Notes under the pieces: model-generated
Databases searched by the model: none
What the model saw: the letters and a program-made list of their open reading frames with translations, nothing else
What the model was told of the DNA's origin: nothing
Origin: a virus
Length of the DNA stretch: 27,238 bases
IMG/VR virus record: IMGVR_UViG_3300001686_000348
Span: 1 to 27,238 of that record
Reading direction: 5' to 3' (one strand)
Part shown: positions 4,442 through 25,697 of the stretch, piece by piece
Layout of the letters: every line of letters starts with the position of its first letter
Numbering within the stretch: position 1 is the stretch's first letter
Made by a program: the position numbers and the translations under genes

Positions 4442-6127
4442 ATGCAAAAAAAAGATTATGCAGCCCTCGCCAAACAGTATGGCGATGATGTGCTGTCAGG
4501 AAAGATCCCGGCTTGCAAGTGGGTCAAGCGCGCCTGTGAGCGTCAGAAGAAGGACCTAGCCAAACAGGTCCAGCCGTATTACCAGTGGCGCTACGAAGCC
4601 GACAGGGGCATCAGGGTTTGTTCGTTCATCGAACTGTGCCCACACATCAAGGGCAAGCTCCGTGGACAACGCATCCGCTTAGAGCCGTGGCAAGTGTTCA
4701 TCCTCATGACTGTTTTCAGTTGGGTGAACAAGACCACCGGACTTCGCCGGTTCAGGCGCGTTTACATCGAGATTCCAAGAGGCAACGGTAAATCAGCCCT
4801 GAGTTCAGCTCTCGGTCTTTACATGGCCTTCATGGACGGCGAAGGTGGCGCAGAAGTTTACTCAGCAGCCACGACACGCGACCAAGCCAAGATTGTTTTT
4901 GATGCCGCTCAAGCGATGGCCCGCTCGATGCCGCAGTTCTTAAATAAATTTGGCGTTGAAGTAAATGCCCATGCCATTGTTCAGATCAACACAGCGTCAA
5001 CGTTCAAGCCGCTTTCGAGTGAAGCAAATACGCTGGACGGCCTCAACATTCACTTCGCCATCGTGGATGAGTTACACGCCCACCCAACCCGTGAGGTTTA
5101 CGACGTTCTCGAAACGGGCACGGGCAAGCGCGAACAATCATTGCTCTGGGTTATTACCACAGCAGGTTCCAACCGCGAGGGAATCTGTTACGAAGTTCGA
5201 AGTTATTTAATCAAGCTGTTGGACGGTGTGTTCGAAGACGATTCGGTCTTTGGCATCGTCTACGGCTTAGATGATGACGACGATTGGGCAGAAGAGGAAT
5301 CTTGGATAAAAGCCAACCCGAATTGGGGTGTGAGCGTTGTTGCCGACGCTATCAGGCAAGTCGCAAAGAAAGCCATCGAAACAGCTTCAGCGCAGCCAGC
5401 ATTCCAACAAAAGCACCTGAACATCTGGACAAGTGCCGACCACACATGGATGAACATGCAAAAGTGGGACGCCTGTTCTGATCCGAATCTGAACGAAGCG
5501 AATTTTGAAGAAGTTCCCGCGATTATCGGGTTAGACGTCGCTTCAAAGTTGGATTTGCTCGCATTGGTTCGCTTACACGTTAAGCACGTCGACGGTAAAC
5601 AACATTTTTATGCATTTGGGCGCTATTGGCTTCCCGAAGCAGCAATTCATAAAACCCAGAACTCGCAGTATCAGGGGTGGGTAATTAATGAACACCTGCA
5701 AACCTGCCCCGGCGAGACCAACGACTTTGATGTTGTTGAGGATGAAATCCGTAATCAGTATCGCAGGTTCGAAGTTCAAGAAGTAGCACACGACCAGTAC
5801 AACGCAACTTCATTTGTGAACCACCTTCAGCCCGAAGGCGTGGTGATGGTTGAAGTCCCGCAACGCACCCAGTTCTTCAGCCCTGCAATGAAGGAATTGG
5901 AAGCCGCAGTCTATGACGGACGCTTCCACCACAATGGCGACCCAATTCTGACGTGGGCGGTGAGCAATGTTGTTTGCCACAGGGACAAGAACGACAACCT
6001 GTTCCCCAACAAGGAACGATTCGAAAACAAGATTGACCCCGTTGTGGCGTTGCTGCTTGCCATGAGCCGTGCAATCACGATTGACCTCAAGCCAGCCTGG
6101 ACACCGCCGCTGGTTCAACTTTGGTAA
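4442..6127 (+). CDS. terL: terminase large subunit
   Basis: A 561-aa packaging motor of the Terminase_1 family. ATPase half: Walker A Pro-Arg-Gly-Asn-Gly-Lys-Ser at 112-118, Walker B Phe-Ala-Ile-Val-Asp-Glu at about 205-210 with Glu210 as likely catalytic residue, and the coupling motif Thr-Thr-Ala-Gly at 239-242. Nuclease half (RNase H fold): Asp365 and Asp371 in Gly-Leu-Asp-Val-Ala-Ser-Lys-Leu-Asp, Asp451 in His-Asp-Gln-Tyr-Asn-Ala, and Asp532 in Lys-Ile-Asp-Pro-Val-Val-Ala. All expected acidic residues are present, so it should be active. The length is normal for the family. AGAAAGGAG ends only 1 nt before the ATG, an oddly tight spacing also seen before the DUF2163 gene at 17214. No upstream start is available in frame. 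Confidence 0.97.
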   Translation: MQKKDYAALAKQYGDDVLSGKIPACKWVKRACERQKKDLAKQVQPYYQWRYEADRGIRVCSFIELCPHIKGKLRGQRIRLEPWQVFILMTVFSWVNKTTGLRRFRRVYIEIPRGNGKSALSSALGLYMAFMDGEGGAEVYSAATTRDQAKIVFDAAQAMARSMPQFLNKFGVEVNAHAIVQINTASTFKPLSSEANTLDGLNIHFAIVDELHAHPTREVYDVLETGTGKREQSLLWVITTAGSNREGICYEVRSYLIKLLDGVFEDDSVFGIVYGLDDDDDWAEEESWIKANPNWGVSVVADAIRQVAKKAIETASAQPAFQQKHLNIWTSADHTWMNMQKWDACSDPNLNEANFEEVPAIIGLDVASKLDLLALVRLHVKHVDGKQHFYAFGRYWLPEAAIHKTQNSQYQGWVINEHLQTCPGETNDFDVVEDEIRNQYRRFEVQEVAHDQYNATSFVNHLQPEGVVMVEVPQRTQFFSPAMKELEAAVYDGRFHHNGDPILTWAVSNVVCHRDKNDNLFPNKERFENKIDPVVALLLAMSRAITIDLKPAWTPPLVQLW

Positions 6128-6134
6128 ATAACAA

Positions 6135-7826
6135 ATGGGACTTTTAACAAGGATATTTCCGTGGGCAGAAAAGCGTACCAGCTTAGAAAATCCACAAACG
6201 CCGCTTTCATATCCAGCCGAATGGTTGCTGGATGCTTGGAACGGTGGTCGTACAGACTCAGGGACCCGCGTAAGTGAGTTAACCGCATTTCAGACCACAA
6301 TCTTTCTTGCCTGTGTGGATTTGATTGCCAGCAAGATTGGCGCGCTTCCAATGAACGTTTACCAGCGTGTCATTAGGAACGGAAGAACGGTTAACAACAT
6401 TGCCGCAGACGAGCACACTCACGATTTACTCAGCCTAGAGCCGAATCCCGACATGCCAGCTTTCACGTTCAAGAAAGTCTTGGTGACCCACGTTCTGGCA
6501 TGGGGCAATGGATACGCTGAAATTCAGCGTGATGCCAGCAACAAGGTTATCGCGATCTGGCCACGCAATCCGAACAATACAAGGCCGCATGTTCTCAAGC
6601 AGGACATGACACTTTCGCCGGTACCGTGGCGACCATTTTCCGTGAGCCTGAAATCAGGCGACATTGTTTACAAGACGACCGATGGTTGCGTCGACGGTGG
6701 CGAACGATACATTGCAAGCGATGACATGATGCACATTCAGGGGCTTTCGTTCGATGGCCGCATTGGGCAATCCGTCGTGCAGCTCGCCCGTCAGACCATC
6801 GGCATGGCCTTGGCAATGGACAAGTTTGGTGCCAAGTACTTTGCCAACTTCGCCAAGCCGGGTGGAATCCTGACCTTGCCGAACAAAATTGGCCCCGAAG
6901 AAATGGAACAAGCCAAGCGTTCGTGGATGGAGGCCCAAGGCGGTGAGAATTCACATCGGGTCGCAGTGCTTCCACCGGACATGAAGTTCACGGCTCTGTC
7001 TAACAACCCACAGGAAGCGCAGACGGTTGAAGCCAAGAAATTAGTCAGGGCAGAAATCTGCTCTGTCTTCCACGTTCCGGTGACGATGATTGGAGACATT
7101 GATAAAGGAAAAGCAAACGCTGAACAGCTCGCTCAGGATTTCTTGAATTATTGTCTTGATCCCTGGCTTCAGTTAATCAAGCAGGAATTTAAACGCAAGT
7201 TGTTCCCAAATCCTGATTTCGCCGGCATCGGTCGTAAGCCGCAGAAAAACAACTTTTATGTGGACTTTGACCTGCACAATTTGTTGCGTCCAAGCGCTGC
7301 TGACCGCCAATCGTTTTATGCTACGGGCTTCAACTCGGGATATCTGAGTCCAAACGACATTCGAGAGATGGAGCAGAAGAACCCCATCGAAAAAGCTTGG
7401 GGCGACACATATTACGTGCCCGTGAATGTTCAACCGGCAGAACGGGCTAACGCAGTACCAGCCCCGACGGAACCTGCACAACAACCAGAACCGGAATCAC
7501 AACCAGAACCATCGCACCCCGAAGCCAAGAGTTTCGTTCCTTCGTATTCGAGGATCTTTAGAGATGCATTAGGCAGGGTTTTGAGCCGCGATAAGGCTGA
7601 TCCAAAGGCATTCCAGCGTACTTTCCAGCCCGTTCTGCTGTCGATTTCCGACACTCTAACTGGGCATCAGAACGCAATTTCAAGTGACACGACGGCATTC
7701 ATCAGCGATTACATAGGCGGAATGTTCAAGCGTTCTGCTACTTGGTCACTTGAAACAGCCGACGAAATGTCCTCGGCAGAACTCGAAAGAGCAATTCAGG
7801 CCATTGCCACAGTCGTTCAGAGGTAA
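6135..7826 (+). CDS. HK97-family portal protein
   Basis: A 563-aa portal. Portals form the dodecameric ring at the DNA-entry vertex, dock the terminase and later the neck. The N-terminal part carries the family pattern Val-Ser-Glu-Leu-Thr-Ala-Phe-Gln-Thr-Thr-Ile-Phe-Leu-Ala-Cys-Val (about 45-62), then Gly-Ala-Leu-Pro-Met-Asn-Val-Tyr, Leu-Ala-Trp-Gly-Asn-Gly-Tyr-Ala, the stem/crown region, and Asp-Arg-Gln-Ser-Phe-Tyr near 395. A Pro/Glu/Gln-rich linker at about 430-465 leads to an extra C-terminal helical tail of roughly 90 residues, longer than the minimal family length. Starts 7 nt after the large terminase stop, with no clear ribosome site, so coupling is likely. Confidence 0.95.
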   Translation: MGLLTRIFPWAEKRTSLENPQTPLSYPAEWLLDAWNGGRTDSGTRVSELTAFQTTIFLACVDLIASKIGALPMNVYQRVIRNGRTVNNIAADEHTHDLLSLEPNPDMPAFTFKKVLVTHVLAWGNGYAEIQRDASNKVIAIWPRNPNNTRPHVLKQDMTLSPVPWRPFSVSLKSGDIVYKTTDGCVDGGERYIASDDMMHIQGLSFDGRIGQSVVQLARQTIGMALAMDKFGAKYFANFAKPGGILTLPNKIGPEEMEQAKRSWMEAQGGENSHRVAVLPPDMKFTALSNNPQEAQTVEAKKLVRAEICSVFHVPVTMIGDIDKGKANAEQLAQDFLNYCLDPWLQLIKQEFKRKLFPNPDFAGIGRKPQKNNFYVDFDLHNLLRPSAADRQSFYATGFNSGYLSPNDIREMEQKNPIEKAWGDTYYVPVNVQPAERANAVPAPTEPAQQPEPESQPEPSHPEAKSFVPSYSRIFRDALGRVLSRDKADPKAFQRTFQPVLLSISDTLTGHQNAISSDTTAFISDYIGGMFKRSATWSLETADEMSSAELERAIQAIATVVQR

Positions 7827-7834
7827 CAAAAAAG

Positions 7835-8497
7835 ATGAAAGGAGAAGTTCGTTTTAACAGTTTGAAAGAACTGCGTATTGACCAGACTGGTGATAACCGC
7901 AGCATCGAAGGATACGCAGCCTTGTATAACAGCCCGACTGATCTCGGTGGGTACAGGGAAGTAATCAAGCCTGGCGCATTCACCCGTGCCATTCAAGAAA
8001 AGCAGGACGTTCGCGCGCTCATTAACCACGACCCCAACATGGTCCTTGGCAGGAGCACCGCAGGAACGCTGCAACTCTCAGAAGACGAAAAGGGTTTGAA
8101 ATTCCGTGTGGAAATGCCCGACACCACTTATGCCCGTGACCTCATGGAGTCCATGAGCCGAGGCGACATCAATCAATGCTCGTTCGGCTTTGAAGTGGTT
8201 GACCAATCGTGGACTAACACCAACACCGATCCCTCATACGCATCTGTTGATGACAATGGCAATGTGATGGTTCGTGAACTCCGTGACATGAATCTGTCGG
8301 ATGTTAGCTGTGTCACATATCCAGCTTATCCAGAAACCAGCGTTGGCCTTCGCAGCCTTTTCAACGCAATCGGTGAGCCGCCAGTTGAAGCTGCACACGC
8401 ACCAACAATTGTTGAAACATTCGACGCAGAAAAAGAGCAAATGAGAATGCGTTTAGAGCTTGCAAACCGCGGAATTCCGCGCCACAGTCAGACATAG
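7835..8497 (+). CDS. HK97-like prohead maturation protease
   Basis: A 220-aa serine protease of the HK97 prohead protease family (MEROPS U35/S78-like). Residues 24-34 show Ile-Glu-Gly-Tyr-Ala-Ala-Leu-Tyr, with Lys-Pro-Gly-Ala-Phe at 45-49. Catalytic His65 lies in Leu-Ile-Asn-His-Asp and catalytic Ser116 in Asn-Gln-Cys-Ser-Phe-Gly-Phe; an acidic residue between them would complete the triad. It cleaves the N-terminal scaffold domain off the capsid protein and then itself. The ribosome site is the GAGGT of the portal's own stop region (GAGGTAAC), about 10 nt before ATG. It is followed by a 174-nt structured leader rather than directly by the capsid gene. Confidence 0.94.
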   Translation: MKGEVRFNSLKELRIDQTGDNRSIEGYAALYNSPTDLGGYREVIKPGAFTRAIQEKQDVRALINHDPNMVLGRSTAGTLQLSEDEKGLKFRVEMPDTTYARDLMESMSRGDINQCSFGFEVVDQSWTNTNTDPSYASVDDNGNVMVRELRDMNLSDVSCVTYPAYPETSVGLRSLFNAIGEPPVEAAHAPTIVETFDAEKEQMRMRLELANRGIPRHSQT

Positions 8498-8531
8498 GGA
8501 GTAATTTTACTTCCACACATCTTTGTAACAC

Positions 8532-8588
8532 CTATCAACGAATGCCCGGTTGCGGGAGCCTTCAGCGAAGGCAACATTCAATTGATAG
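8532..8588 (+). promoter_or_regulatory. long multi-stem RNA hairpin in the capsid gene leader
   Basis: CTATCAA (8532-8538) pairs with TTGATAG (8582-8588). GAATG (8540-8544) pairs with CATTC (8575-8579), and GCCTTC (8558-8563) pairs with GAAGGC (8567-8572) over a 3-nt loop. All 18 pairs are Watson-Crick and stack in order, so chance is unlikely. Alternative pairing of GTTGC (8549-8553) with GCAAC (8571-8575) is possible. There is no U-tract; this fits an RNA-stability or translation-control element. Confidence 0.6.
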
Positions 8589-8597
8589 AGCGTAGCG

Positions 8598-8617
8598 GTT
8601 CCTACCTGTCGTAGAAC
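8598..8617 (+). promoter_or_regulatory. second, weaker hairpin in the capsid gene leader
   Basis: CTAC (8602-8605) pairs with GTAG (8611-8614), and GTT (8598-8600) with AAC (8615-8617), with one bulged C. The same CTAC could pair instead with GTAG at 8592-8595, so two states are possible. Confidence 0.3.
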
Positions 8618-8645
8618 TCCGGCGAAGCAAACCAAAATAAAAACA

Positions 8646-8662
8646 CTGGGCTAAGGGCCCGG
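8646..8662 (+). promoter_or_regulatory. hairpin touching the capsid gene ribosome site
   Basis: CTGGGC (8646-8651) pairs with GCCCGG (8657-8662), with one G-U pair and a 5-nt loop. It takes up the first two bases of the GGAG (8661-8664) that lies 7 nt before the capsid ATG at 8672. It could moderate initiation or define spacing. Confidence 0.35.
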
Positions 8663-8671
8663 AGAAAGGAC

Positions 8672-10015
8672 ATGAGTCTATCGAAAGCAAGAGAACTTCG
8701 TGAACAGCGTGGAAAGCTAATCCTCGATGCACAGAAATTGTACGAAGGAGAAGTGACCGCTGAAACACGCTCAAAATTTGACACGATGATGGCCGATGCC
8801 GACGTTATGTTGGCCGACATCAATCGCATTGAAAAAGCCGAAGCGGATGCCGCAAGCATTCGTTCAGCCGTTCGCCCACCTGAAAACCAAATTGAGGCCG
8901 CAACCAGCACCGTTGAGTTCGGTTCTGAATATCGCACAGCCTTCACTAACGGTGGCGTAAAGCCCCTTCACTTGGAGCAACTTTCCAAGGAAGTTCGTTC
9001 TACAGTTCAGACCCGAAACGCAAAATTCAGTGCAGCCGTAAAGGACTACTTGGCTAAGGGTGACGCAAATATGTCGCCTGAGAGCCGTGCCATCCTCAAC
9101 GGTCAGAACGCAGAATTCCGTGACATGGGTGTGGGCACCACCACTCTTGGTGGTTTCTTGATCCCTCAGGGTTATGTGTATGACATCGACCAAGCCCTGA
9201 AATATTACGGCCCGATGTTGAACACATCCACCGTAATGCAGACCGCTTCTGGTCAGCCATTGCCCTACCCAACCAGCAACGACACCAGCAACGTTGGTGC
9301 GATCCTCGCTGAAGGCACTCAGGTTTCAACGCAGGACGTAACCATTGGCAGCCTGACGTTCGGTGCATTCAAGTTCACCACAAACATGGTGAAGGTGAGC
9401 ATTGAATTGCTACAGGATTCCGCATTCGACATCGACAGCTTCATTAAGGCTCAGTTTGCACAGCGTCTTGGACGCATCTTGAACACCAAGTTCACGGTTG
9501 GCGTTGGTACGACTGAACCCAAGGGCATCATTGTTGCCGCAACCGCTGGCCCAACCGCTCTTGGTTCTGCTGGCAACGACGGCACTGGTGCAACTGGTGC
9601 TAACTCCATCGGTTCCGACGATTTGATCGCTTTGGAACACTCTGTAGATCCTCTCTACCGCCCGGGTGCCGCATTCATGATGCACGATTCCACCTTGAAG
9701 GCTGTAAAGCAGTTGAAAGACAAACAGGGGCGTCCACTGTACATGCCGGGTTTCGCAGTTGGAGCACCGGACACCATCATGGGATACCGCTACTTCATCA
9801 ACAACGATATGGCCACAATCGCCACGACAAACAAGACCGTGTTGTTTGGACAACTAAGCAAATACTTGGTTCGTCAGGTGAAGGAATTGGCAATCGTTCG
9901 TTTGAACGAGCGTTTCGCTGACTTCGGTCAGGTCGCCTTCGTGGGCTTTGCCCGTTACGACGGCAACTTGATTGATGCCGGAACTCACCCAGTGAAGTAC
10001 TTGGTACAAGCCTAA
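8672..10015 (+). CDS. HK97-fold major capsid protein with N-terminal scaffold domain
   Basis: A 447-aa capsid subunit. Residues 1 to about 120 are charged and helical (a delta/scaffold domain, Ala-Arg-Glu-Leu-Arg-Glu-Gln-Arg near the start) expected to be removed by the protease encoded upstream. The mature part begins around Phe-Arg-Asp-Met-Gly-Val-Gly-Thr-Thr-Thr-Leu-Gly-Gly-Phe-Leu-Ile-Pro, the classic N-arm of HK97-like capsids. It continues with Ser-Ile-Glu-Leu-Leu-Gln-Asp-Ser (spine helix) and ends with the P-domain Phe-Val-Gly-Phe-Ala-Arg-Tyr-Asp-Gly. GGAG lies 7 nt before the start. The gene has a private structured leader and a private terminator, fitting very high expression. Confidence 0.96.
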   Translation: MSLSKARELREQRGKLILDAQKLYEGEVTAETRSKFDTMMADADVMLADINRIEKAEADAASIRSAVRPPENQIEAATSTVEFGSEYRTAFTNGGVKPLHLEQLSKEVRSTVQTRNAKFSAAVKDYLAKGDANMSPESRAILNGQNAEFRDMGVGTTTLGGFLIPQGYVYDIDQALKYYGPMLNTSTVMQTASGQPLPYPTSNDTSNVGAILAEGTQVSTQDVTIGSLTFGAFKFTTNMVKVSIELLQDSAFDIDSFIKAQFAQRLGRILNTKFTVGVGTTEPKGIIVAATAGPTALGSAGNDGTGATGANSIGSDDLIALEHSVDPLYRPGAAFMMHDSTLKAVKQLKDKQGRPLYMPGFAVGAPDTIMGYRYFINNDMATIATTNKTVLFGQLSKYLVRQVKELAIVRLNERFADFGQVAFVGFARYDGNLIDAGTHPVKYLVQA

Positions 10016-18601: not shown

Positions 18602-21600
18602 ATGTTATCGTCATCCAGTAAATCAACAACACCAGCCCAAACACCACCGCAGAAGCTTGCTGGCATCAACGTCACGCAATCGCTCTACGGCATAGCTCTG
18701 CCTATCCTGATGGGACAACGGCTGCTCGGTCAGTCCCTCATCTGGTACGGAGATTTCACGGCCATCCCACACGTTCAGAAAACCGCTTCGGGTGGTGGTG
18801 GCGGTAAGGGTTTGGGTGGTGGGGGCGGTTCGACACAGACGACGACCACTTACACATACACAGCCGCAACAATGGGCGCACTATGTTCTGGCCCTGTAAC
18901 AGGCATCGTGAACGTCCGCGATACCAAAGGACGTTATCAGCAGACCAGCGTTACCGAAGGCTTCACCATCCCGGGTGGTGGCGGAAACTACACGGTTGCA
19001 AATCACGGGCTGTTCAAAGTCGACAGGGGTGTTGCTTTCGCTCAAGCGTACAGCCAAGCCGTCAACGACTACGGCTCACCAGCACCCGTTACGCTCTCGG
19101 GCACCTATCAAATCCCAATGACGGTTGGAGCAGGAACAGGGCAGTACACCGTCAATACAGCGACAGGTGTTTACACGTTTCATGCCGCTGATGCTGGCAA
19201 GGTCGTTCAAATTACATACAGTTACAACCTGCTCGACATCGACAACACCGAAACAGCGCAGATTCCTTCGTCTGGTCCGTTCACCATTCTCGTTAATGAT
19301 TCAGCCGACTTCCTGCAAGACACAGGCGTAGTGTTTTATCCGTCAGGGACGGCATTAACAAAGGTGGGTTCATCTCCAGCCGCAGGGCAATACACAGCGA
19401 GTGGTGGACTCTACACTTTCAATTCAGCCGATAACGCTAAGCAAGTTCAAATCAGTTACGTAACCAACACGCAAAACCAGCAGTCCGACGCCCAGACCGC
19501 GTTAAACCTGACGCTCTTGAATGGAGCACAGGGGCAGACAGTTTGGTCATATTTAACGTCGCGTCACCCTGAAGCGGCTATTGGTTACACCGAAACAGCC
19601 GTGATTGCTTCACAAGCTATGGATTTGGGCAGCAACGCCGAAATGCCCAATTACACATTCGAAGTCGCAGGGCCTTACCAGTTTGGCGGCGGTATCGTGG
19701 ATTGTGACCCGGCCGACTGCATCGGTGCAATTCTGTCCGACCCGTTCTTTGGCAAAGGTTTTCCAACCACTTCATTCGGGGACTGGACTGGCGCTTCAAA
19801 CTTCTGGGTTGCCAATAATTTCTTTATCTCACCGCTTCTGAGTTCGCAGGACACAGTTTCGTCGGTGATCGGAAGCATTCTCGAAGCTGGCATGACAGCC
19901 GCATTCTGGAGTGAGGGCCAGCTAAAGTTGGTTCCGTATGGCGACACCAGCGCAGCCGGTAACGGGCAAATCTTCGTTCCGAACACGCAGCCGATTGTTG
20001 ATCTCAATGACGATGATTTTCTCGAAGACGTAAAGATAACCAGAGCGCCTTGGCAGGATGCCAACAATAAGGTTCAGATAACGTGGACAAATCGCCTGAA
20101 CGGTTACAACACAGAAACCACAACCGAACAGGATGACGCCGCAATTCAACGTTACGGCTTGAGGGATGAAGACCAGCAGAATTGGGATTTCATCACCACG
20201 CTTGCAGCAGCCCAGTTCGCAGGCAATATGCGCGTGAAGCGTTCGGTGAACATCCGTGCTTCTTACACATTCACCATAAAACACAATTACAGCTACCTTG
20301 AGCCGATGGACCTTGTGACAATCACGATCAACGAACTTGGTCTAATTAAAATTCCTGTTCGCATTCAGCAGATTGTCGACAACCCTGACGAGAAGGGGCT
20401 TGAAATTACGGCTGAAGAATTCCCCTGGGGAACAGCACAGCCGACGCTGTATGCAAAGCAGATAGGGGTGGGCTTCAAACCGAACGCCGGACAAGCAGAT
20501 CCCGGCAACACCACGGCTCTGATATTTGAGGCACCTAGCCGTTTTGGATTGCAACAAGGCAACATCCTTTATGCATTTGTGACGGGCAATTCGCCTGATT
20601 GGGGCGGCTGCCAGCCTTACGTGAGTTACGACGGAGTCTCCTACGATCCATTTGGGCCGCCTGTTATGAACCCTGCCCGTTTGGGAACCCTTCTCACCAC
20701 ATGGGCACCAACCAATCTCGTCACGAATGGCGATGGTGAAAGCGGCACACTCGGTTCTCAGGCTACAGGATGGACACTTGGCGGTGGAAACAATTTGGTA
20801 GTGGCCAACGACTTTGCTCGCTTTGGTTCTAAGAGCCTCAAAATCACCAATGCAAGCGCTGCCGACTCGTTCTCGTCTCAAGATTTCAGCGTTACGGGTG
20901 GTGCCGCTTACGAGTTGTCTGGATGGATAAAGACAAGTGCTCTGCCTTCAGCAGACGTCGGTCTCGGTGCCGTGTTGAACGTAGACACTGTATCTGGAGT
21001 TACCGGATTCACGATAATCAGCAAGACCGGAACTGACTTAGCAGCGCTTAATACATTTTCGCCGCCCTCTCAACCAGACGTGGGAATTCTAGCCGATGAT
21101 ACGGCCCACGATTGGACATTCGTTTCTTCTATCTTCCAGCCAATCGGAACAGGAACAATTCGGCTTTACTGCCAATTGGGATACGGAGGCAGCCAAAGTG
21201 GAACAGCATGGTTCGACAGTGTTGCATTGGTACAATTACCAGCCGACCCTGATACATCCAATTTCCAAGCCTCCATGGCGAGCGCCGGTTCTCAGTTGCC
21301 ATCGGTGAGCACTAGTGACTTTGATCAAGGTGTAAGCCTGTGCGCGATTGTGGACTCATCGCACGGCAACAACCCTTTTGAACTCTTCAGTTATAAGAAC
21401 TCAACTCTGGTTGGCGCGAACACGTTTCAGTTAGACACGTTCCACCGCGGATTAATGGGAACACAGAATGTCCCACACAACATAGGCGATACGTTCGCAC
21501 GTCTGGATCAGGCCTCCTTTACCTATCAGTACGACCCGAGCTATTACGGCAAGACCATCACATTCAAATTCTGCTCATTTAACACATTGGGAGGAAGACC

Positions 21601-22537
21601 GCAGCCGATCTCCCAAGCCGCTGCATTTCCTTTTGTGCTGTCGGGCAGTGGGGCTGGAGCGGTTGACCTGAATACAGGAATCTATCGTCCTGGCCTTGGC
21701 TCAATACCGCCATCGTGGACAGGAACAATTACTTGGACCTCAGCGGTTCCCGGCACAAGCGCAGTCATTAGCTGGAACATCACGGTCAACCGTGGAACGA
21801 TGCCGAACCCAGCGCAAGCTAAGACCACCATCGTGGCGCAGAGTTATGTTGGCAGCCAAACGATTACTGGCCTCACAGCCTCAACAAATTATTGGCTGTA
21901 TCCATATTTAGACGACACACAGTCGGGTTCACCGCTTTTGTTTGTCCTCAACTCGCAGATACCGGGTGCCGTCGGAACGCCGGCAATCGCTTACACTGCG
22001 CTCACTGCGAACGCCACTTACTTCTCAGGCCGTAATGACCATCTGCCTGTAAACAACGGGCCACTTCAGATCACCACGGCACCAACATCAGGGTCAGGAT
22101 CAGGCGGAAGCGGTACCGGGATTGGTGGCGCATGTCCTCGCGGAGATATGGTCGTGGAACATCGCACGAAAGGCGTTGTTCGCGTTGACCAGATTGTTGC
22201 GGGTGATGAAATTTTAGGCCGCGACGGTTGGGTGATTGTATTGGACGCCATTCACTATTGGACGCATGAGTGGACAGATGTGTTCACCGATTGCGGAGAA
22301 GATGCAGTCGTTACACCCAACCACACATGGCCGACGCCTTCAGGGGATGTCCGCACACCAGTTATCAAAACCATATTCCAACGTGACGGTGATTTCACTG
22401 ATGTTACGCATTTGCAATCAGAACACAGAGGTGAACTGTGTGTTGGTCTCACAGTCAGTGGAGACCAATGCTATTACATCGGACACAGAATTCCGCGTCT
22501 CCTAACTCATAACGGCAACATCTTGCCCAGATCATAA
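18602..22537 (+). CDS. 1311-aa tail-tip/host-specificity protein with C-terminal Hint autoprocessing domain
   Basis: The gpJ/GTA g15 position and layout. Residues 1-60 are the hub-binding N-terminus. Then come Gly-rich loops (about 63-78) and two copies of a beta repeat near 165-210 and 250-295 (Gly-Gln-Tyr-Thr ... Tyr-Thr-Phe ... Val-Gln-Ile). The phage-tail core spans about 330-630, with Asp-Asp-Asp-Phe-Leu-Glu-Asp-Val-Lys. A carbohydrate-binding-like module lies at about 703-880, a fibronectin-III-like segment at about 1038-1125, and a Ser/Gly linker at 1160-1177. Residues 1178-1304 form a Hint domain: Cys1178 first, Gly-Asp-Glu-Ile-Leu as end of block A, Thr-Pro-Asn-His in block B (Thr1238, His1241), Leu-Thr-Val near block F, and terminal His1303-Asn1304. 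Only seven residues follow, starting with Gly. The Hint domain should cleave after residue 1177 and at Asn1304; the tail part would be released or ligated to a nucleophile. I know of no standard role for this in a tail tip. Confidence 0.9.
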   Translation: MLSSSSKSTTPAQTPPQKLAGINVTQSLYGIALPILMGQRLLGQSLIWYGDFTAIPHVQKTASGGGGGKGLGGGGGSTQTTTTYTYTAATMGALCSGPVTGIVNVRDTKGRYQQTSVTEGFTIPGGGGNYTVANHGLFKVDRGVAFAQAYSQAVNDYGSPAPVTLSGTYQIPMTVGAGTGQYTVNTATGVYTFHAADAGKVVQITYSYNLLDIDNTETAQIPSSGPFTILVNDSADFLQDTGVVFYPSGTALTKVGSSPAAGQYTASGGLYTFNSADNAKQVQISYVTNTQNQQSDAQTALNLTLLNGAQGQTVWSYLTSRHPEAAIGYTETAVIASQAMDLGSNAEMPNYTFEVAGPYQFGGGIVDCDPADCIGAILSDPFFGKGFPTTSFGDWTGASNFWVANNFFISPLLSSQDTVSSVIGSILEAGMTAAFWSEGQLKLVPYGDTSAAGNGQIFVPNTQPIVDLNDDDFLEDVKITRAPWQDANNKVQITWTNRLNGYNTETTTEQDDAAIQRYGLRDEDQQNWDFITTLAAAQFAGNMRVKRSVNIRASYTFTIKHNYSYLEPMDLVTITINELGLIKIPVRIQQIVDNPDEKGLEITAEEFPWGTAQPTLYAKQIGVGFKPNAGQADPGNTTALIFEAPSRFGLQQGNILYAFVTGNSPDWGGCQPYVSYDGVSYDPFGPPVMNPARLGTLLTTWAPTNLVTNGDGESGTLGSQATGWTLGGGNNLVVANDFARFGSKSLKITNASAADSFSSQDFSVTGGAAYELSGWIKTSALPSADVGLGAVLNVDTVSGVTGFTIISKTGTDLAALNTFSPPSQPDVGILADDTAHDWTFVSSIFQPIGTGTIRLYCQLGYGGSQSGTAWFDSVALVQLPADPDTSNFQASMASAGSQLPSVSTSDFDQGVSLCAIVDSSHGNNPFELFSYKNSTLVGANTFQLDTFHRGLMGTQNVPHNIGDTFARLDQASFTYQYDPSYYGKTITFKFCSFNTLGGRPQPISQAAAFPFVLSGSGAGAVDLNTGIYRPGLGSIPPSWTGTITWTSAVPGTSAVISWNITVNRGTMPNPAQAKTTIVAQSYVGSQTITGLTASTNYWLYPYLDDTQSGSPLLFVLNSQIPGAVGTPAIAYTALTANATYFSGRNDHLPVNNGPLQITTAPTSGSGSGGSGTGIGGACPRGDMVVEHRTKGVVRVDQIVAGDEILGRDGWVIVLDAIHYWTHEWTDVFTDCGEDAVVTPNHTWPTPSGDVRTPVIKTIFQRDGDFTDVTHLQSEHRGELCVGLTVSGDQCYYIGHRIPRLLTHNGNILPRS

Positions 22538-22538
22538 A

Positions 22539-22925
22539 ATGAAGCGATATTACGTTTGTCCAAAATCAGTCTGGTGTGCCATACACGATTGTGGTCAGCC
22601 CTATCATGCGTTGATGGCTGGCAGTTCCTACGTGGAACTTGATGCCGACAACATCCTACTCATCACGGACTTTTCTTCGGAATGGGCAGAGGCAATGTGG
22701 CATGAGCACCCAGAAGTTGCACGGCTCACCCACCCGGTGCACGAATCAACTGTACCCCTTTATTCCTTGTGCGACGACCCAGGTTACGCACACAAACAAT
22801 TTACAGACGACCATTGGAACTTATTGGTCGCTGCATTCGGCTTACAAGAAACCCACACGGTTTGGGATTTACATTCCCAACTCAAAGAGCTTTATCCCGC
22901 CATGAAGTTGTCGAGCGGGTATTAA
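22539..22925 (+). CDS. hypothetical protein following the Hint-bearing tail-tip gene
   Basis: A 128-aa soluble protein rich in His, Trp, Tyr and Cys (Cys at 7, 13, 18 and 78; several His including three near residues 60-75). No signal peptide or membrane helix. Residues 1-45 look beta-rich; residues 85-128 look helical. It begins 1 nt after the tail-tip stop without its own ribosome site, so its translation is coupled and its amount tied to the tail-tip protein. It could be an assembly chaperone, a minor tip protein or a partner of the Hint domain; none of these can be shown from sequence. Confidence 0.72.
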   Translation: MKRYYVCPKSVWCAIHDCGQPYHALMAGSSYVELDADNILLITDFSSEWAEAMWHEHPEVARLTHPVHESTVPLYSLCDDPGYAHKQFTDDHWNLLVAAFGLQETHTVWDLHSQLKELYPAMKLSSGY

Positions 22926-24848: not shown

Positions 24849-25697
24849 ATGCCTAAATATCGCAAAGCTATTGTCTCGTATCTCGACATCCTTGGATTTC
24901 GAGATTTGATCGGCTCTCCGGCGGGAACAACTTCAGCGCTCAAGGTTCATAAAATCTTAGCCGCTACCAGAAATGTAGCCGGTGTTCCATTTAGAGTCCA
25001 AAGTGAGAATTGGAACACGCAAACTGAGATTCAGAACTTTTCTGACCTGATACTGCGCACGACTTTTATTGACAGCCAGCGCAACTTAGTGGATCAGTTA
25101 TTCCTTGATTTAGGGGTCTTAGCTGGAATTCAATTTACGCTGGTCGCTAAATACGGCATTTTCGTGCGCGGGGGTGTGAGCATAGGCGACATGTTTATAG
25201 ACTCAAAGTTTGTATTTGGGCCAGCATTAGTTAGGGCATACGAGCTTTCAGAAAAAGTCGCTGTTTTCCCACGGATTGTCGTTGATCCAGAATTGGTCGA
25301 GGTAGGCTCCAAGTCGTCAGGTGTTGATTTCGGGCGGGTTTATCGGCCCGTTCTATTCGAAGACAACAACATACATTTTGTTGATTACTTGGGAACAATA
25401 TACAAGAAGCACTTCATTGTCATTGGAACATTTGGCAACGTCGTTCCCACAAAAATGCTTGTGGCTCACAAACGCCAGATTGAAAAGAAATTATTGGAGA
25501 CAGCGCAGAAGGAAGAAAGGATTCGGAGAAAAATTGGGTGGGCTGCGATGCTTCACAATCGAGTGATCGTTGATATCGCGCAACATTCAATGAAGGAGCT
25601 TCAAAAATATATTCGTTTCATGATTCCCCGGCAAAAGATGGCTGCTCATGTGCCGATTGATGTGCTGGAGGGAAAGATCCCGTTCTCTCCTAAGTAG
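24849..25697 (+). CDS. class III nucleotidyl-cyclase-fold-like accessory protein
   Basis: A 282-aa soluble protein. Residues 9-18 read Val-Ser-Tyr-Leu-Asp-Ile-Leu-Gly-Phe, like the first metal-binding motif of class III cyclases (Asp13). Residues 63-69 (Asn-Phe-Ser-Asp-Leu-Ile-Leu) match the second metal site (Asp66). Residues 104-137 (Phe-Val-Arg-Gly-Gly-Val-Ser-Ile-Gly ... Phe-Gly-Pro-Ala-Leu-Val-Arg-Ala-Tyr-Glu-Leu) match the strand-helix unit after it. The Asn and Arg that stabilise the transition state in true cyclases seem absent (Val and Glu in their places), so activity is doubtful. The C-terminal 90 residues are helical and basic. Not a virion protein by composition; a moron with a signalling or anti-phage role is possible. 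The family is inferred from motifs only. Confidence 0.65.
   Translation: MPKYRKAIVSYLDILGFRDLIGSPAGTTSALKVHKILAATRNVAGVPFRVQSENWNTQTEIQNFSDLILRTTFIDSQRNLVDQLFLDLGVLAGIQFTLVAKYGIFVRGGVSIGDMFIDSKFVFGPALVRAYELSEKVAVFPRIVVDPELVEVGSKSSGVDFGRVYRPVLFEDNNIHFVDYLGTIYKKHFIVIGTFGNVVPTKMLVAHKRQIEKKLLETAQKEERIRRKIGWAAMLHNRVIVDIAQHSMKELQKYIRFMIPRQKMAAHVPIDVLEGKIPFSPK

Follow-up and report, generated by a model that had tools for sequence, protein, structure and literature searches.

Does the tail-tip protein of a soil phage end in a self-processing domain and, if so, what would such a domain do there? The question is raised by the window, by which we mean the whole stretch of DNA analyzed, a 27,238-base record of an uncultured virus that we refer to as a soil phage. 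A reading of its sequence alone had claimed that the tail-tip protein closes with a Hint domain of the intein/Hedgehog type. Phage inteins are known mainly from replication and packaging proteins (terminase, helicase, and reductase). If the tail-tip Hint cuts, the outermost protein of the tail would be self-processed, and its position makes tail maturation, and whether virions can carry a reactive thioester, directly testable.

A Hint domain closes the tail-tip protein

The open reading frame at positions 18602–22537 (all features described here lie on the + strand) encodes a 1311-amino acid protein resembling the J/GTA-megatron type of tail hub. It matched Pfam Phage-tail_3 (3.5e-22) and Rcc01698_C (3.8e-8), PHROG 1101, a tail protein (1.5e-78), and, partially and below the cut-off, NCBIfam GTA_megatron, in agreement with the earlier assignment to the tail tip. 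The genes before it encode DUF2460, a Phage_BR0599 hub, and NlpC/P60, which is the order usual for tail tips. The final 134 residues comprise the Hint domain (22133–22513; Cys1178 to Asn1304, 127 residues) and a seven-residue tail. The elements named by the sequence-only reading lie where it had placed them: the linker, Cys1178 (22133–22135), which would be the nucleophile of an N-S acyl shift, the block A end GDEIL (residues 1201–1205; 22202–22216), the block B motif TPNH (residues 1238–1241; 22313–22324), LTV (residues 1283–1285), and the block G end His1303-Asn1304 (22508–22513).

That reading had also proposed a profile search, a structure prediction, and a survey of related tail-tip proteins as checks. 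By itself, the segment was weakly recognized, with an E value of 0.18 for Pfam Hint, under the gathering cut-off, and of 0.01 for the gp41-1 intein; single-sequence searches of Pfam, NCBIfam, PHROGs, and PDB gave no match past curated thresholds. A profile of four sequences reached the gp41-1 intein at 4.7e-7 and otherwise matched its sister entry alone. With ten sequences, the profile matched the gp41-1 intein at 5.8e-10, the bacterial intein-like (BIL) domain 2lwy at 2.2e-7 over nearly its full length, an intein C-terminal splicing domain protein at 1e-6, and 8r2c at 6e-4; the alignments to two gp41-1 entries and to the BIL domain extend through the terminal Asn. The tail-tip Hint family has been overlooked because it falls below standard database thresholds.

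The AlphaFold2 model was uninformative with the four sequences only (pLDDT 43), and the ten-sequence alignment raised it to pLDDT 92.9 and pTM 0.86. Foldseek placed the gp41-1 intein first against this model (TM 0.82, rmsd 1.7 Å) and the BIL domain second (TM 0.82/0.81), and the best 50 PDB matches listed were all Hint folds. Thus, the model has the horseshoe beta fold of the Hint superfamily, and all ten homologues have its blocks A, B, F, and G with Cys1, TxxH, and a C-terminal Asn. Profiles and predicted structure together confirm the Hint domain at the C-terminus of the tail-tip protein as real and above chance.

Homologues keep the catalytic residues

The ten sequences are those of the window and of nine other loci, all on contigs of uncultured viruses. 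Scans of IMG/VR contigs gave L001 (62% identical over its best-matching Hint segment), L003, and L004/L005; the four-sequence profile, run over all retrieved loci, added L057, L073, L075, and L081 with the same tail-tip ending; and the last scan added L087 and L094, the latter carrying its Hint on a different protein of a different phage. The same ending therefore recurs, on separate contigs, in eight further tail-tip proteins, which excludes an assembly artefact. Among the 53 complete relatives of the tail-tip protein, nine bear the Hint domain and 44 do not; ten more are cut by contig ends and were left out of the 53, their Hint state unscored.

L094 is a podophage-like genome in which a 399-residue fibre-like protein (5407–6606) has a similar arm and a Gly-rich stretch followed by a more canonical Hint (CFTGNVKIKTPDG...VAHNLNKF); a gene of ~110 codons again comes next.

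Scans with short peptide patterns or BLAST, by which distant members would be missed, did not find the Hint ending in 50,697 isolate phages, apart from one marginal match (27%, E=0.06), nor in 72,556 plasmids, nor any relative of it in GTDB genome contigs (two scans). The isolate phages did contain relatives of the tail-tip core, all Hint-less. Hint domains in phage proteins are as such already known: a viral structure library holds many Hint entries, named terminase, helicase, or 'Hint domain containing protein', and one named fibronectin type III. In the open-licence literature, we found no paper describing a Hint or BIL domain on a tail-tip protein.

Pairwise identity among the ten Hint sequences is 14–76% (median 27%), and most positions vary. 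Cys1, the block A Gly (Gly1201), Thr B7 and His B10 of block B (Thr1238 and His1241), and the terminal Asn (G7) are kept in every sequence, and the penultimate His in nine, in line with the claimed Cys1 and His-Asn end. B7, B10, G6, F4, and F13 are known as assisting positions (PMC4031507). The exception is L004, whose Hint ends in TCN: the penultimate residue is Cys and not His, and position −1 is Pro, but the block F His is kept. Its reactions may be weakened by these two changes. The block F His is lost in the window, L001, and L003 (all Gln) and in L075 (Phe), all of which keep the penultimate His. No member thus lacks both of the histidines that can assist Asn cyclization. At block F:4, where inteins commonly have Asp, none of the ten does; the residue there is Gly, Lys, Ser, Ala, or Asn. 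Position +1 holds Gly, Leu, or Tyr and in no case Cys, Ser, or Thr, and none of the ten has an endonuclease-sized insert between blocks B and F; the earlier reading was right on both absences.

The L004 Hint (5989–6513; also found in L005) carries an extra ~40 residues between blocks B and F, whose CQHH...CxxC pattern resembles a zinc-binding one.

Comparison with known Hint systems

The closest known kind, as judged from sequence and model, is the A-type BIL domain, which likewise has Cys1, a His-Asn end, and no nucleophile at +1, and lies in a variable region of a non-conserved protein. The likeness to that of Clostridium thermocellum (PDB 2lwy) is one of both profile and fold. Here, by contrast, the domain sits on a phage tail tip after a Gly-rich arm, has only 4–8 residues past the Asn, and is paired with a small downstream gene. 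The gp41-1 (cyanophage-like) intein (PDB 6qaz/6riz; rmsd 1.6–1.7 Å) gives the closest profile match and shares the mini-intein length and the THN end, but its block F Asp (D107) is not kept in the tail-tip Hint. The gp41-1 intein has Ser at +1 and interrupts a DNA helicase.

Other classes fit less closely. Class 1 inteins have Cys, Ser, or Thr at +1 and most commonly Asp at F:4, neither of which occurs in the ten; class 3 inteins lack Cys1 and have Cys at F:4, whereas Cys1 is present in ten of ten and an F:4 Cys in none. The Hedgehog (Hog) domain (PDB 1at0; fold match 5.1e-5) is also a C-terminal Hint that forms a thioester at Cys1 and leaves the N-terminal part as product. Unlike Hog, the tail-tip Hint keeps the terminal His-Asn and has no sterol-recognition region after it. 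Vint (PF14623; PDB 8r2c) was the top Pfam match of the family, in three of the ten members (7e-5), but the window sequence itself has no Vint match and the host proteins differ. The sequence-only reading had likened the domain to BIL or polymorphic-toxin Hint domains. The first likeness holds; the second fits poorly, because in each of the ten homologues the protein stops 4–8 residues past the Asn, with no toxin there to be released, although PT-HINT also lies far C-terminal in long surface or delivery proteins. In a large survey of toxins, HINT is reported never to occur with phage-tail-like T6SS and PVC systems (PMC3482391).

Probable self-removal and the Gly-rich arm

Directly before Cys1178 stands the Gly/Ser-rich linker TSGSGSGGSGTGIGGA (residues 1162–1177; 22085–22132); a Gly-rich stretch precedes Cys1 in all ten sequences. 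Before the linker, an arm (TGLTASTNYWLYPY...GRNDHLPVNNGPLQITTAP; residues 1089–1161; 21866–22084) aligns in eight Hint-bearing tail tips, and its end region is shared with the Hint-less L032 and L033. These two (6137–9418 and 6137–9400) finish in long Gly-rich stretches (...GGGGGHNIL and ...GGGGRNIY), as does the Hint-less L082 (3063–6044; ...GGYGGKNPN, terminal sequence GGGGFGGGGGGAHGGYGGKNPN). The C-terminal part of the tail tip is exchangeable, since the majority of the other Hint-less relatives have unrelated modules there.

We consider that the tail-tip Hint is probably a self-removing, A-type BIL-like domain that leaves a flexible Gly/Ser end. It would work like an A-type BIL, with which its sequence and predicted fold agree. 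After folding, Cys1178, assisted by Thr1238 and His1241 of block B, would accept the acyl group from residue 1177 to form a thioester; Asn1304 would cyclize with the help of His1303 and free the peptide GNILPRS (22514–22534), which is followed by the stop codon. The thioester would then be hydrolyzed or, less often, captured by the amine of the freed peptide. With the Hint gone, TSGSGSGGSGTGIGGA is the predicted C-terminus, and the window tail tip would have a Gly-rich end such as L032, L033, and L082 have from the start. The cut would probably fall during tail assembly.

Self-removal is supported by the fold, the intact catalytic residues, the long inheritance, purifying selection, the Gly-rich ends of L032, L033, and L082, and the established chemistry of A-type BILs that lack a +1 nucleophile. 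The missing F:4 Asp and the Pro at −1 and absent penultimate His of L004 count against it, and the sequence gives no reason why a phage would add a C-terminal domain only to remove it. The recurrence of this ending, each time with the small gene after it, suggests trimming or chemical activation of the outermost tail end in some phages.

Self-removal has to be weighed against splicing, in which a mini-intein or A-type BIL would join the Gly-rich arm to GNILPRS and give a mature end ...GGA-GNILPRS. The claim that this is not a normal splicing intein stands as far as the missing +1 nucleophile goes, but that absence leaves a route to splicing, because A-type BILs without it, though they mostly cleave, can also splice, with aminolysis of the N-terminal thioester by the freed C-terminal amine (PMC4031507). 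The Hint also sits between the Gly-rich arm and a short tail. These tails are 4–8 residues long, with Pro in nine of the ten: GNILPRS, GNILPRC, GGGVLPRS, GNTLPRS, GGILPTTG, LQPFS, LMPES, LQPDIS, YSANPC, and LNKF. LPR[SC] ends four of the five that start with Gly, but the tails of L073, L057, and L087 are of a different form, L[QM]P..S. The NIL and NIY of L032 and L033 loosely resemble arm plus NIL, and would be the counterpart of GNILPRS if splicing occurred; the likeness is suggestive only, as one between such short peptides could be chance. Splicing seems unlikely, since cleavage predominates in the A-type BILs tested and all ten sequences lack a nucleophile at +1.

A small gene accompanies the Hint

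The gene directly 3′ of the Hint-bearing tail tip (22539–22925) encodes a 128-residue protein (MKRYYVCPKSVW...). Genes of this family (~130 residues) lie directly 3′ of the tail tip in all nine Hint-bearing loci, and its profile matched beside none of the 44 complete Hint-less tail tips (Fisher 2e-10, without correction for shared ancestry). The strict pairing makes it a concrete partner candidate for the tail-tip Hint, and its product may take part in Hint processing. The small protein had no significant match in Pfam, PADLOC, or PDB. The family has a conserved start and an invariant His65-Pro66 and His92; the two histidines are the sole invariant polar residues, and there is no invariant Cys or Lys. 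The reading-frame relation between the tail-tip gene and the small gene varies from locus to locus, and we therefore rejected a frameshift or readthrough that would fuse the Hint to the small protein.

The pairing speaks for a further alternative to self-removal, in which the thioester would be captured by an outside amine, whether on the small protein, on a different protein of the virion, or on a host-surface group, to form a covalent bond. Thioester chemistry is expected from Cys1, and the Hint lies at the very end of the tail tip. Against this, no adduct is known, and the small proteins lack an invariant Cys or Lys. Moreover, the family may extend to the small genes next to L094 and to the Hint-less L032/L033, as distant members (hhalign E 2.6e-4, probability 42%), so the small gene could go with the Gly-rich arm and not with the Hint. 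We regard outside capture as quite unlikely. The same low expectation applies to a two-part system in which the Hint and the small protein together activate the tail tip as a thioester and join it covalently to a partner, which could be the small protein, a further part of the virion, or a host-surface amine; if it were true, intein chemistry would serve in assembling or anchoring the particle.

Inheritance and selection

On the tree of the tail-tip core, with truncated rows removed, Hint presence requires four changes, against a mean of 8.3 for shuffled labels; distances between Hint domains track those between cores (r=0.93). The Hint domain is therefore old in the tail-tip lineage, with some losses, and by these sequence comparisons is inherited with the core. 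A tree in which tail tips cut by contig ends had passed as Hint-less suggested scattered gains; leaving these out reversed the picture. The pN is 0.26 against a pS of 0.82 for the window and L001, and 0.14 against 0.87 for L057 and L073; judged by these values, the domain is under purifying selection, with replacement sites constrained and silent sites saturated. The new points here are this inheritance with the core, the Gly-rich ends of some Hint-less relatives, and the small-gene pairing.

The Hint might instead stay attached, its fold kept as a non-cutting structural, chaperone, or receptor-binding domain. The missing F:4 Asp and the L004 changes would suit such a role, but Cys1, TxxH, and Asn are exactly kept in ten of ten while most positions vary, and an assisting His is retained in every member, so that we give a non-cutting role little credence. 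A decaying selfish intein, recently arrived in the tail gene, would account for the intein-type fold and the patchy presence among relatives, but is most improbable given the missing homing endonuclease, the inheritance with the core, the purifying selection, and a site in a variable C-terminus and not in a conserved active-site motif.

Elsewhere in the window, positions 24849–25697 encode a 282-residue protein (SYLDILGF...GVSIGD...) that matched nothing in Pfam or PADLOC at E 0.01; its sequence recalls nucleotide-cyclase-like domains. A defence or toxin role for the neighboring genes was rejected for want of any PADLOC match. An HNH endonuclease gene (2378–2800; Pfam HNH 2e-6) lies 5′ of the packaging genes, distant from the Hint region.
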